Positions 9,306-34,423 of a DNA stretch of 64,000 nt are shown piece after piece. How positions within the stretch are numbered: position 1 is the first letter of the stretch; every line of letters begins with the position of its first letter. The stretch spans positions 1,178,001 to 1,242,000 of the forward strand of contig NZ_JACIEN010000001.1 of NCBI RefSeq assembly GCF_014196925.1, in the 5' to 3' direction. This DNA is from Chelatococcus caeni. GTDB lineage: Bacteria; Pseudomonadota; Alphaproteobacteria; Rhizobiales; Beijerinckiaceae. Below the pieces are notes generated by a model that worked only from the letters and a program-made list of their open reading frames with translations, was not told where the DNA came from and ran no database searches. Made by a program: the position numbers and the translations under genes.

Positions 9306-9341
9306 GAACAAACAGTGAATAACGGTGAACATAAGACGAAC
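9306..9341. promoter_or_regulatory. Tandem LexA (SOS) operators
   Basis: GAAC-N7-GAAC at 9327-9341 is an exact alphaproteobacterial LexA box (GTTC-N7-GTTC on the other strand). A near-match, GAAC-N7-GAAT, lies at 9306-9320; the two start 21 bp apart, two helical turns. The candidate -35 TTGAAC (9304-9309) lies within the pair, so LexA binding would block RNA polymerase. The exact box ends 15 bp before the ATG of the 34-residue peptide. The lexA gene itself has the same exact box at 34409-34423. Confidence 0.85.
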
Positions 9342-9355
9342 AAGAGGAGCGAGAC

Positions 9356-9460
9356 ATGTTCAAAACCGTTGTCACCTCACTTGTCGAGATCGCATCGCTC
9401 GGCGTTTTCGTCACCATGATCGGCGTCTGGGCCACGGTTGCCAGCGCGCCTCCCGTCTGA
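9356..9460 (+). CDS. 34-residue SOS-controlled membrane peptide (SidA-like)
   Basis: ATG 9356 follows GAGGAG at 9343-9348. It encodes 34 residues: a short start MFKTVVTSLVE, one hydrophobic stretch (IASLGVFVTMIGVWATVA) and the tail SAPPV, so it is predicted to be a single-pass inner-membrane peptide. It has its own exact LexA box and is followed by a strong hairpin, so it looks like a separate transcript ahead of dnaE. In Caulobacter the SOS-induced 29-residue inner-membrane peptide SidA blocks division by binding FtsW. Size, topology and control match that design; orthology is not shown, since such a short sequence cannot settle it. Confidence 0.72.
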   Translation: MFKTVVTSLVEIASLGVFVTMIGVWATVASAPPV

Positions 9461-9478
9461 TCGAAAGACCGTCCACAG

Positions 9479-9513
9479 CCGGTCGGGCGCCGACCCTCGA
9501 CGGCGCCGACCGG
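9479..9513 (+). terminator. GC-rich hairpin between the SOS peptide gene and dnaE
   Basis: CCGGTCGGGCGCCG (9479-9492) pairs with CGGCGCCGACCGG (9501-9513) with one bulged G and an 8-base loop. No T-tract follows, so it is an atypical terminator or attenuator, or an mRNA-stabilising end for the short transcript. Confidence 0.5.
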
Positions 9514-9598
9514 TCAAGGCGATACTGCGGCGCTCCCGAGCGATCGGATGGATCAGCAGCGAGTCGCCGGGGCCGAAGGGACGAGGACGGAACGAACG

Positions 9599-13069
<3,471 letters not shown>

Positions 13070-31364: not shown

Positions 31365-33656
31365 ATGCCGTCGGACCGATCCCGCCAGGCCCGTGCCGTT
31401 GCCGCCGTGCTCGATCGCGCGACCGGCGGACGCGGCGCCGTTCTGGCTGGTGGCCTGTCCCTTGCCGATGTCGGCTCGTTTCTTACCCGCTGCCTCGACG
31501 AGGAGGGCACGCACCGGCGCCTGTTCCCCTGGGCGGCGGTGAGCTTCGGCATCGGGGTGCTGCTCTATTTCGCGGCCGACCGCGAGCCGAGCGTCTGGGC
31601 GCCTGTCGTGGCGCTTGCCGTCACCGTCGGGGTGGCAGCCGTTTCGCGACGCTATGCGGCCTTCGTCGCGGCGGTTGCCGCCGCCTTTCTCTTTGCCGGC
31701 TTCCTCGCCGGTGCGGCCCGGACGGCCCGGGTGGAGGCACCGGTGCTCGCCCGCGTGACCATCGCGCCGCTCATCGGCTTCGTCGAAAGCGTGGAGGAGC
31801 GGCCGCAGGGGCCGCGCGCCGTCGTGCGCGTCGAGACGCTCGGCAATCTCGGCGACGGCGAGCGCCCGGCGCGGGTGCGGGTGTCGATGCGCGAGCCGGC
31901 CCGGCTGCGCGCCGGCGACTTCATCAAGGCCACCGCCCGCCTGATGCCGCCGCCCGGGGCGGCCTGGCCGGGCGGCTACGATTTCACGCGCGACGCCTTC
32001 TTCCGCGGCATCGGCGCCGTGGGCTCTCTTGTGGGGCGTGTCGAGATCGGTGCCCCGCCACGGCCACCGGACTGGCGCCTGGGCCTTGCGACATGGCTCG
32101 ATGAGACGCGCAATGCGCTGACGGCGCGCATCGCCCGTGCCGCGGGCGGGCAGGAGGGGGCGGTCTCGGCCGCGCTCGTCACCGGCAAGCGCGGCCTCAT
32201 CACCGAGGACACCAACGAGGCCCTGCGCGCCGCCGGCCTCTATCACATCGTGTCGATCTCCGGCCTGCACATGGCGCTGGCCGCCGGCACGGTGTTCTGG
32301 GCCGTGCGCGCGCTCCTCGCGCTCTTTCCGGCCATCGCCCTCACGTGGCCGATCAAGAAGATCGCCGCCGCGACGGCCATGGCGGGGGCCGTGGGCTACT
32401 GCCTGTTCTCGGGCGCCGACGTCGCCACCCAGCGGGCGCTGATCATGACGCTGACCATGCTCGGCGCCATCCTCGCCGACCGGCCGGCGCTCTCGATGCG
32501 CAATCTCGCCTTCGCCGCCATCCTGTGCCTCGCCCTCGAGCCGGAGGCGGTGCTCGGGCCGAGCTTCCAGATGTCGTTCTCGGCGGTCGCCTGCCTCGTG
32601 GCGCTGGCGGAATGGCAGGCGGCCCGCGCGGGCAGGGGCGAGGCGTCGCTCGGCCCGGTCGCGCGCGTCCTGCGCCATGCCTGGCGGTGGACCGTCGCCC
32701 TCGTCGTGACGACGCTCGTCGCCTCCCTGGCGACGGGGGCCTATGGCGCCTATCATTTCCAGACCGCCATGCCGCTGAGCGTCGTCGGCAACGGCATCGC
32801 GCTACCCTTCGTCTCCTTCATCGTCATGCCGGCGGCGGTGCTCGGGGTGCTGCTCAATCCCTTCGGCCTCGACGCGCCCATCTGGTGGCTGATGGGGCAG
32901 GGCACGGCCATCGTGCTCGCCGTCTCCCATGCCATGCAGGACTGGCGCCTGTCCGTGGTGGCGATACCGGCCTTTCCGGGCAGCGCGCTCATCCTCTTCT
33001 CGCTGGCGCTGCTCGTCCTGACCATCTGCATCTCGCCGCTGCGCTGGCTCGCCGCCGTGCCCGCAGCCGCCGCCCTCGCCATCGCCGCCGGAGCTGCGCG
33101 GCCCGACATCTTCGTCGACCGCAACGGTGCGAGCGCGGCCGTCCGGGGGACGGAGGGTCGCCTCGCCGTGCTCGGCCGCGCCTCGTCCTTCGTCGTCGCG
33201 CAATGGCTGCGCGCAGACGGCGATGCGAGGCAGCCGGGCGACGAAAGCCTCAAAAGCGGTGTCTTCTGCGACCGCGACGGCTGCACCATGCAGGCGGTCG
33301 ACGGCCGCATGGTCGCCCTGGTGCGCCGCCCCTCGGCCTTCGTCGAGGACTGCCGGCGGGCCGACATCCTCGTCACGGCGCTCACCGTCCCGCCCGGCTG
33401 TGCAGCGCCCGTGGTGATCGACCGCACGAAGCTGCGCGAGAACGGCGCAATGGCCGTCATCCTCGGGAATGGCGGCAGCGATCGGCTCATCGGCCAGTTG
33501 CCCTCCGACGAGCGCCGCGCCTGGATGCAGGCGCTTCCTTCACGACCGTTGCGCCAGACGACCGGCGCCGCGACGGGCCGGCCACCATCACCGACAGCCG
33601 ATGAGACGGGCGGGGAGGATCAGGAGCCCGACGTCAGTAGCGACGCAGCAGATTGA
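31365..33656 (+). CDS. comEC: ComEC/Rec2-family competence membrane protein
   Basis: 763 residues, polytopic inner-membrane protein. It has an N-terminal DUF4131-like part with membrane helices and an extracytoplasmic OB-like section (about 20-230) and the competence domain with [27 protein letters not shown] and [16 protein letters not shown] (about 270-560). The C-terminus has no HxHxDH motif, so the metallo-beta-lactamase domain of classical ComEC is absent or unrecognisable; alphaproteobacterial homologues often look like this. Proposed role: channel for single-stranded DNA during natural transformation. Its 3' end overlaps the end of lexA on the other strand by 23 bp. Other competence genes are not in view. 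Confidence 0.85.
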
Positions 33657-34332
33657 CGAGCTTGCCCTGGATGCGCACCCGGTCGGGGCCGAGCACGCGC
33701 GTCTCGTAGGCCGGGTTGGCCGCCTCGAGCGCGATGGAGGAGCCGCGGCGCCTCAGGCGCTTCAGCGTCGCTTCCTCGTCATCGATCAAGGCGACGACGA
33801 TATCGCCCGTATTCGCCGTATCCTGCTTGCGGATGACGACCGTATCGCCGTCGAGAATGCCGGCCTCGATCATCGAGTCGCCGCGCACCTCGAGCGCGAA
33901 GTGCTCGCCGCTGCCCAGCATGTCCGGTGGCAGCGAAACGGTGTGGCTGCGGCTCTGGATGGCGGAAATGGGCGTGCCGGCCGCGATCCGGCCCATGACG
34001 GGGATCGCCACCGTCTGGACCGCGGGTTCGACCGCCTGGGGCGCCGGCGCGCGCACCTTGCCGAGCCCGCCCTCGACGACGCTTGGGTTGAAGCGGCCGC
34101 GCGGGGCAGCGGCGACGCCGTCGGGCAGGCGCAGCACCTCGAGCGCCCGGGCGCGGTTCGGAAGCCGGCGAATGAAGCCGCGCTCCTCCAGCGCCACGAT
34201 GAGGCGATGGATGCCGGATTTCGACTTGAGGTCGAGCGCTTCCTTCATCTCGTCGAAGGACGGCGGCACGCCGGTCTCACGCAGGCGTTCGTGGATGAAA
34301 CGCAGGAGTTCGTGCTGTTTGCGCGTCAGCAT
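33634..34332 (-). CDS. lexA: LexA repressor
   Basis: 232 residues from ATG 34332; the frame stays open to 34434 but homologues begin [13 protein letters not shown]. Winged-helix DNA-binding domain at about 1-70 ([20 protein letters not shown]), then the self-cleaving S24 domain: scissile Ala118-Gly119 in [10 protein letters not shown], nucleophile Ser153 in RGDSMIEAG and general base Lys191 in ATLKRLRR. An exact LexA box 77 bp upstream shows autoregulation. It closes the minus-strand ppiD-trp-moa series, a usual place in Hyphomicrobiales. Confidence 0.97.
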
Positions 34333-34408: not shown

Positions 34409-34423
34409 GTTCTCGGTGTGTTC
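34409..34423. promoter_or_regulatory. LexA (SOS) operator of lexA
   Basis: GTTC-TCGGTGT-GTTC, exactly GTTC-N7-GTTC, the direct-repeat operator of alphaproteobacterial LexA. It lies between moeA and the lexA ATG, giving lexA its own SOS promoter within the larger minus-strand cluster. Confidence 0.9.

Follow-up and report, generated by a model that had tools for sequence, protein, structure and literature searches.

A 34-codon gene preceded by two LexA-type boxes lies directly upstream of dnaE in Chelatococcus caeni, whose lexA gene was found farther along the same window (the whole stretch of 64,000 nucleotides that was analysed). The features on which this report is based are the following.

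9306..9320, + strand: upstream LexA box with one mismatch, GAACAAACAGTGAAT; same GAAT half-site in congeners G001 and G003, exact in congener G002
9327..9341, + strand: exact LexA box GAAC-N7-GAAC, GAACATAAGACGAAC, by pattern match; exact in four of four genus members compared, window included
9343..9349, + strand: ribosome binding site AGAGGAG, 6 nt 5' of the ATG at 9356
9356..9460, + strand: sidA-like gene encoding a 34-aa single-helix peptide (ORF call, ATG start, purifying selection, profile homology to SidA)
about 9478..9514, + strand: GC-rich hairpin, by folding, in the intergenic spacer 5' of dnaE, lacking a T run
9600..13069, + strand: dnaE, replicative DNA polymerase III alpha subunit (TIGR00594, 1196 bits; start by alignment)
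33634..34332, - strand: lexA (TIGR00498, 184.9 bits; LexA DNA-binding domain and Peptidase S24)
34409..34423, - strand: exact LexA box GAACACACCGAGAAC, by pattern match, 76 bp upstream of lexA

The translation of 9356-9460 (+) is MFKTVVTSLVEIASLGVFVTMIGVWATVASAPPV (34 aa), in which one membrane helix is predicted from hydropathy, with a Kyte-Doolittle maximum of 2.0 (17-residue mean). The first-pass annotation had described here a 34-codon ORF with a ribosome binding site and one hydrophobic helix, preceded by an exact LexA box and a near match 21 bp apart, and each of these elements was recovered at the positions listed above. The distance between the starts of the boxes at 9306 and 9327 is indeed 21 bp, the half-sites lying at 0, 11, 21 and 32 bp. 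No match to the peptide was found in NCBIfam or Pfam, and the PHROGs search returned only weak matches of unknown function (E of at least 0.037).

Purifying selection acts on the peptide frame within the genus. When compared to the window, pS was 0.44 and pN 0.08 in G003, two synonymous and no nonsynonymous changes were counted in G001, and pS was 0.56 and pN 0.24 in G002 (30 codons from the start only). Unlike the frame, the spacer leading to dnaE has drifted in both G003 and G002, and in the alignment, residues of the peptide recur across families.

The conserved start of dnaE is the ATG at 9600, 139 bp beyond the peptide stop. The hairpin that had been claimed to separate the two genes is present, with a stable stem (-33 kcal/mol for the fold of 9458-9525, z -3.4), but the separation was not accepted, and the hairpin was rejected as a terminator, because the T tract is absent and the terminator search between the two genes in the window called none. 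At the place of the hairpin, another possible stem was seen by eye in G003. A second TIGR00594 match (482 bits) was detected on contig C9; it is presumably dnaE2, given its far lower score and the presence, some 2 kb away, of a weak imuA match (44.6 bits to NF033429, whose cut-off is 150).

LexA boxes and probable SOS control

Exact boxes are enriched in the genome as a whole, with 85 occurrences versus 45 for the backward pattern. Within the window, GAAC-N7-GAAC with at most one mismatch showed no enrichment (31 found versus 35.8 expected), and the significance of the site at the peptide gene thus comes from its conservation and not from its frequency in the window. We examined the neighbourhoods of boxes in 20 regions of the C. 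caeni genome (G000), mostly picked by eye for A/T-rich spacers. The adjoining genes included recA (GAACAAAAAAAGAAC), ssb, the weak imuA match, and ruvC and rmuC, whose boxes were in reversed orientation; the remaining regions held genes not recognised as SOS genes or doubtful ORFs only. Both boxes at the peptide gene have the same make-up as those at known SOS genes. The SOS control proposed by the first-pass annotation is therefore supported by the boxes themselves and by the occurrence of the same motif at known SOS genes such as recA, ssb and lexA. No sigma-70 promoter match was found for the peptide gene.

The spacing of half-sites was analysed in 60 upstream segments containing a short membrane ORF and at least one GAAC. 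Peaks were observed at 11 (55), 21 (15) and 32 bp (10), and also at 18 bp (12). Spacings of 11, 21 and 32 bp would fit neighbouring LexA dimers bound to the same face of the helix, but a spacing of 18 bp would not.

Elsewhere in the genome, the near-identical sequence GAACATATAGNGAAC was found three times (L334, L335 and L339, at C1:299205, C1:429178 and C3:69795), in the neighbourhood of a radical SAM gene (PA0069 type), a DUF6456 gene and further ORFs; these sites possibly mark unusual SOS genes or represent another motif. At C3:46251 (L338), the box GAACGAATAGTGAAC, inverted relative to the gene, lies 10 bp before a DUF2800/PD-(D/E)XK gene.

Conservation upstream of dnaE and probable kinship with SidA

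A dnaE gene was found in 57 of 60 relatives belonging to the window's order. Fifty-six upstream regions, one per genome and including that of the window, made up the order set, from which G005 was left out for its weak match (E 1e-9). The set from the rest of the class comprised 80 regions, mostly one per family, drawn from the listed part of the dnaE-bearing genomes (270 of 289), one region (L102) being only 243 bp long. Under a strict test, which asked for an exact box followed at a distance of 12-100 bp by a short membrane ORF, 34 of the 56 order regions and 8 of the 80 class regions were positive. The control patterns CAAG and CTTG gave no positive region in either set, and the inverted box GTTC gave two regions in the order and three in the class. 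The arrangement of ORF and box that the first-pass annotation suggested looking for in relatives is thus conserved upstream of dnaE in part of both sets, with the frame kept in the genus. Beyond the eight class regions, the exact box of three others read by sequence (L158, L090 and L091) is accompanied by a similar ORF, 29, 46 or 47 codons long, and the 11 regions with box and ORF outside the order represent 10 families.

The box and the ORF were strongly associated. In the order, 32 regions had both, 2 the box only, 2 the ORF only and 20 neither (Fisher 6e-11), that is, the ORF was present in 32 of 34 regions with a box and in 2 of 22 without. The corresponding class counts were 9, 2, 2 and 67 (Fisher 1e-8; 9 of 11 versus 2 of 69). 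Those of the Caulobacter set, 10, 1, 6 and 0, do not bear on the association, no region there lacking both. ORFs of the opposite strand, used as a control, were found in 1 of 56 and 0 of 80 regions and showed no association with the box. The arrangement upstream of dnaE is patchy: 22 of the 56 order regions fail the strict test, some from the window's own family among them, and an exact box is absent from 6 of 17 Caulobacter/Phenylobacterium upstream regions and from three of the four dnaE-linked copies examined in family f201.

Genomes of Caulobacter and Phenylobacterium were reached by a PopZ query, and 18 were picked from 80 loci. Seventeen of them contained dnaE, the C. vibrioides MAG (G345) giving no match. 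All 17 have an ORF of 29-30 aa directly 5' of dnaE, with an exact box in 11. Two of the peptides, one per genus, were scanned and scored 74 and 69 bits with NF033228 ('cell division inhibitor SidA'), well over its cut-off of 35, and the ORF at this place was therefore taken as sidA in both genera. The same model did not match the window peptide (E up to 10), two of its relatives, or anything in the window's own genome. Over its cut-off, it matched none of 297 order genomes and none of 289 class genomes (one and four weaker matches, respectively), and among 14 control genomes it matched Caulobacter vibrioides only.

A profile of 36 order peptides was compared with alignment A2. Of the 17 peptides from Caulobacter and Phenylobacterium, A2 holds 14, with L255 and two duplicates omitted. 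The two profiles aligned start to start across 28 columns, with a probability of 90, an E-value of 1.5e-6 and a score of 25.7. None of 200 shuffles reached this score, the best values being 18.9 for 200 region-preserving column shuffles and 14.2 for 200 free shuffles, and the reversed profile scored 7.8. The order HMM scored the 14 A2 peptides at 12.3-22.3 bits. For hydropathy-preserving shuffles, the 99th percentile was 9.2 and the highest score 12.4; the lowest-scoring A2 peptide, at 12.3 bits, lies inside the shuffle range. Since NF033228 fails on the window peptide and its relatives, the kinship rests on a weak signal in a 30-residue helix and on the shared position.

The window peptide thus has the length and single predicted helix of SidA, a LexA box, the locus 5' of dnaE and profile homology, but it is not recognised by the curated model. 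As position, regulation and profile hold while this model fails, the 34-codon gene is very probably a diverged sidA ortholog, encoding a putative SOS division inhibitor that would probably act via FtsW. The SidA-like arrangement noticed by the first-pass annotation is corroborated by the same gene order as at Caulobacter sidA, the profile homology, the LexA boxes and the conserved frame. Its suggestion of an undescribed peptide peculiar to this lineage does not seem to hold: the peptide looks like sidA itself, box and ORF occur in 10 families outside the order, and a small ORF is already known at dnaE1 of S. meliloti. For Caulobacter strain NA1000, the adjacency of sidA and dnaE rests on CCNA_02004, which is sidA (PMC10769358), on CC1926, which is dnaE (PMC1839093), and on the other Caulobacter species examined. 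We infer that CC1926 corresponds to CCNA_02003, a name of which a literature text search found no mention.

Second copies and phage-borne peptides

Alignment A3 was built from 49 peptides, four being left out as too unlike the others: L117 and L121, two of the eight class regions passing the strict test, and L040 and L051, from A1. At E up to 0.01, the A3 HMM matched 126 of 297 order genomes, with about three expected by chance. A class-wide search with the A1 HMM gave matches with E not above 0.1 in 29 of 289 genomes; 17 of its 30 rows lay in frames longer than 100 aa, and it was not taken as a count of SidA.

Twenty A3 matches, picked to include second copies, were examined with their flanks; 13 adjoin dnaE and 7 do not. 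Eight genomes had two matches, one of them by dnaE in each case (in the window for G000 and at L047 for G049). The second copies were strong in G000, G420 and G606 (E 5e-5 or better) and weak in G049, G400, G422, G423 and G589 (E 0.001 to 0.01), such that individual copies among the latter five could be due to chance. Phage-type genes were found beside six of eight non-dnaE copies. The neighbours of these copies, and of viral contigs discussed below, are as follows.

L086 1444-1620 (G000, contig C1 near 1797265), + strand: SidA-like peptide of 58 aa, encoded in a Mu-like prophage (early region); MuA, MuB and repressor nearby (L086/L087)
L301: integrase nearby
L305: Erf and repressor nearby
L310 and L313: phage-type repressor only
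L312: repressor; MuA 48% identical to the MuA of the window's genome
L321, IMG/VR contig: repressor and SSB nearby
L326, IMG/VR contig: RecT and repressor nearby
L329, IMG/VR contig: exonuclease, Erf and repressor nearby
L332, IMG/VR contig: integrase and repressor nearby

The peptide of L303 is the same as that of L301, its neighbours falling outside the gene scan. In G606 (family f201), 19 of 27 residues are common to the prophage and chromosomal peptides, by manual count. No recognised phage gene was seen near L307, the second copy of G422 (contig C132, E 0.0019).

The 58-aa peptide of L086 was found in identical form in three IMG/VR contigs (L266-L268), and tblastn of the prophage peptide against phage records gave chance-level matches only (E of at least 8). 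Two scans of IMG/VR with degenerate patterns yielded 12 distinct stretches, eight of which scored 20-30 bits, L327 repeating the frame of L322; the backward-pattern control yielded three. Four of the 11 stretches of one scan were set aside: L323 and L325, which share a frame and gave no score, L328 at 3.8 bits and L331 at 11.0 bits. Clear phage neighbours were found in four of the eight contigs (L321, L326, L329 and L332). For the others, L322 gave FtsK/terminase-like matches to one protein only, one protein of L324 gave no match, and L330 fell outside the gene scan. The DNA of L321 had no near match among phage records.

With an order-only HMM, 11 phage or non-dnaE peptides scored 18.6-34.4 bits, all above the maximum of 13.1 for hydropathy-preserving shuffles, although these scores are partly built in, the peptides having been found by a family-derived pattern or HMM. 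No exact LexA box was found in 3 kb of L086, within 200 bp in seven non-dnaE loci, or up to 400 bp upstream in the eight IMG/VR contigs. A tentative reading, which may prove right but to which we give somewhat less than even weight, is that sidA has long belonged to the SOS genes of alphaproteobacteria, linked to dnaE, and that temperate phages have repeatedly acquired it, as in the Mu-like and integrase-type prophages. At induction, a SidA-like arrest of host division would then be set off by the prophage repressor rather than by LexA, since no exact LexA box lies near the copies in early or immunity regions. If so, the phage copies would tie prophage induction to the same target and would parallel lambda Kil, with FtsW as the point of attack.

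Proposed mechanism, alternatives and known systems

By analogy with SidA, LexA would occupy the two boxes (half-sites at 0, 11, 21 and 32 bp) and repress the putative promoter of the peptide gene. Upon DNA damage, activated RecA would lead to LexA self-cleavage and the peptide would be made, insert into the inner membrane as a single helix and most likely block the late divisome through FtsW, thereby delaying division until repair is complete. Damage induction, membrane insertion, FtsW as the target and division arrest are all drawn from what is known of SidA, which, as Modell reportedly described in 2011, is released by LexA cleavage, binds FtsW and stops the last division step. With 29 aa, SidA resides in the inner membrane and acts on FtsW to inhibit division (PMC4211646), and loss of lexA in Caulobacter leads to filamentation via sidA (PMC12700426); in this published work, LexA cleavage sets free the tiny membrane peptide, which binds FtsW and arrests the last division step. 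Low-confidence models in a 2026 paper place SidA on TM7 of FtsW (PMC13396833).

The ORF could instead act as a leader or upstream ORF, being translated to adjust dnaE under SOS and yielding an inert product. It lies in the 5' region of dnaE with no terminator called between them in the window, and a small ORF in the dnaE1 5'-UTR of S. meliloti has been proposed as a possible uORF (PMC10117765). We regard this explanation as unlikely, since the residues of the peptide recur across families, its frame is under purifying selection, its profile is homologous to that of SidA, which acts as a protein, and related peptides exist at sites remote from dnaE, with phage-type genes adjoining six of the eight. 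Less probable still is a membrane-active peptide that depolarises the membrane and does not inhibit the divisome. TisB is a short hydrophobic peptide behind a LexA box, and the window peptide is likewise short, hydrophobic and preceded by LexA boxes, as is DinQ (PMC3567139); against this reading stand the profile homology and the locus shared with SidA. Finally, ORF and boxes could be chance occurrences in a GC-rich intergenic region, for which speaks that the window holds no excess of boxes with at most one mismatch. Against this, frame, box and position are conserved and the association tests are strong; a chance ORF is highly improbable and was rejected on the conserved frame and the association of box and ORF.

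If the peptides are SidA, the SOS division checkpoint known from Caulobacter would be an old, class-wide feature hidden by the size of its gene, and they would provide a large natural set of sequences for mapping the face that contacts FtsW. What looks new is the recurrence of SidA-like peptides in temperate phages and in relatives whose copies escape the curated SidA model. No description of sidA outside Caulobacter, or of a phage copy, was recognised among the matches listed from the open-licence literature, mostly titles and abstract starts. The finding is already known in part from S. meliloti, where sORF25, a novel small ORF in the dnaE1 5'-UTR, was detected by ribosome profiling and proteogenomics and described by its authors as a possible uORF (PMC10117765). 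It occupies the same place in another alphaproteobacterium and is likened here by position only; SidA, LexA and SOS do not occur in the main text of that paper.

The window peptide and Caulobacter SidA (NF033228) have in common their place 5' of dnaE, a LexA box, about 30 residues, one helix and an S-L/V-x-x-F-V stretch in the 28-column alignment. They differ in length (34 versus 29 residues) and in the residues following the shared F-V (TMIG in the window peptide, WMMC in SidA), and identity with the six Caulobacter/Phenylobacterium rows of A3 is only 17-24%. DidA of Caulobacter is also a small, single-helix, damage-induced division inhibitor, but it has 71 residues and is SOS-independent (PMC4211646), whereas the window peptide has 34 residues and LexA boxes, and does not belong with DidA. 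YneA, SosA and ChiZ are likewise membrane inhibitors induced by DNA damage, from other phyla; FtsW as a target is backed by evidence for YneA and by low-confidence models for SosA and ChiZ (PMC13396833). Lambda Kil, like the phage-borne copies, is a small peptide of a temperate phage that blocks host division, but it acts on FtsZ assembly (PMC3961180), whereas the phage-borne copies found here resemble SidA.
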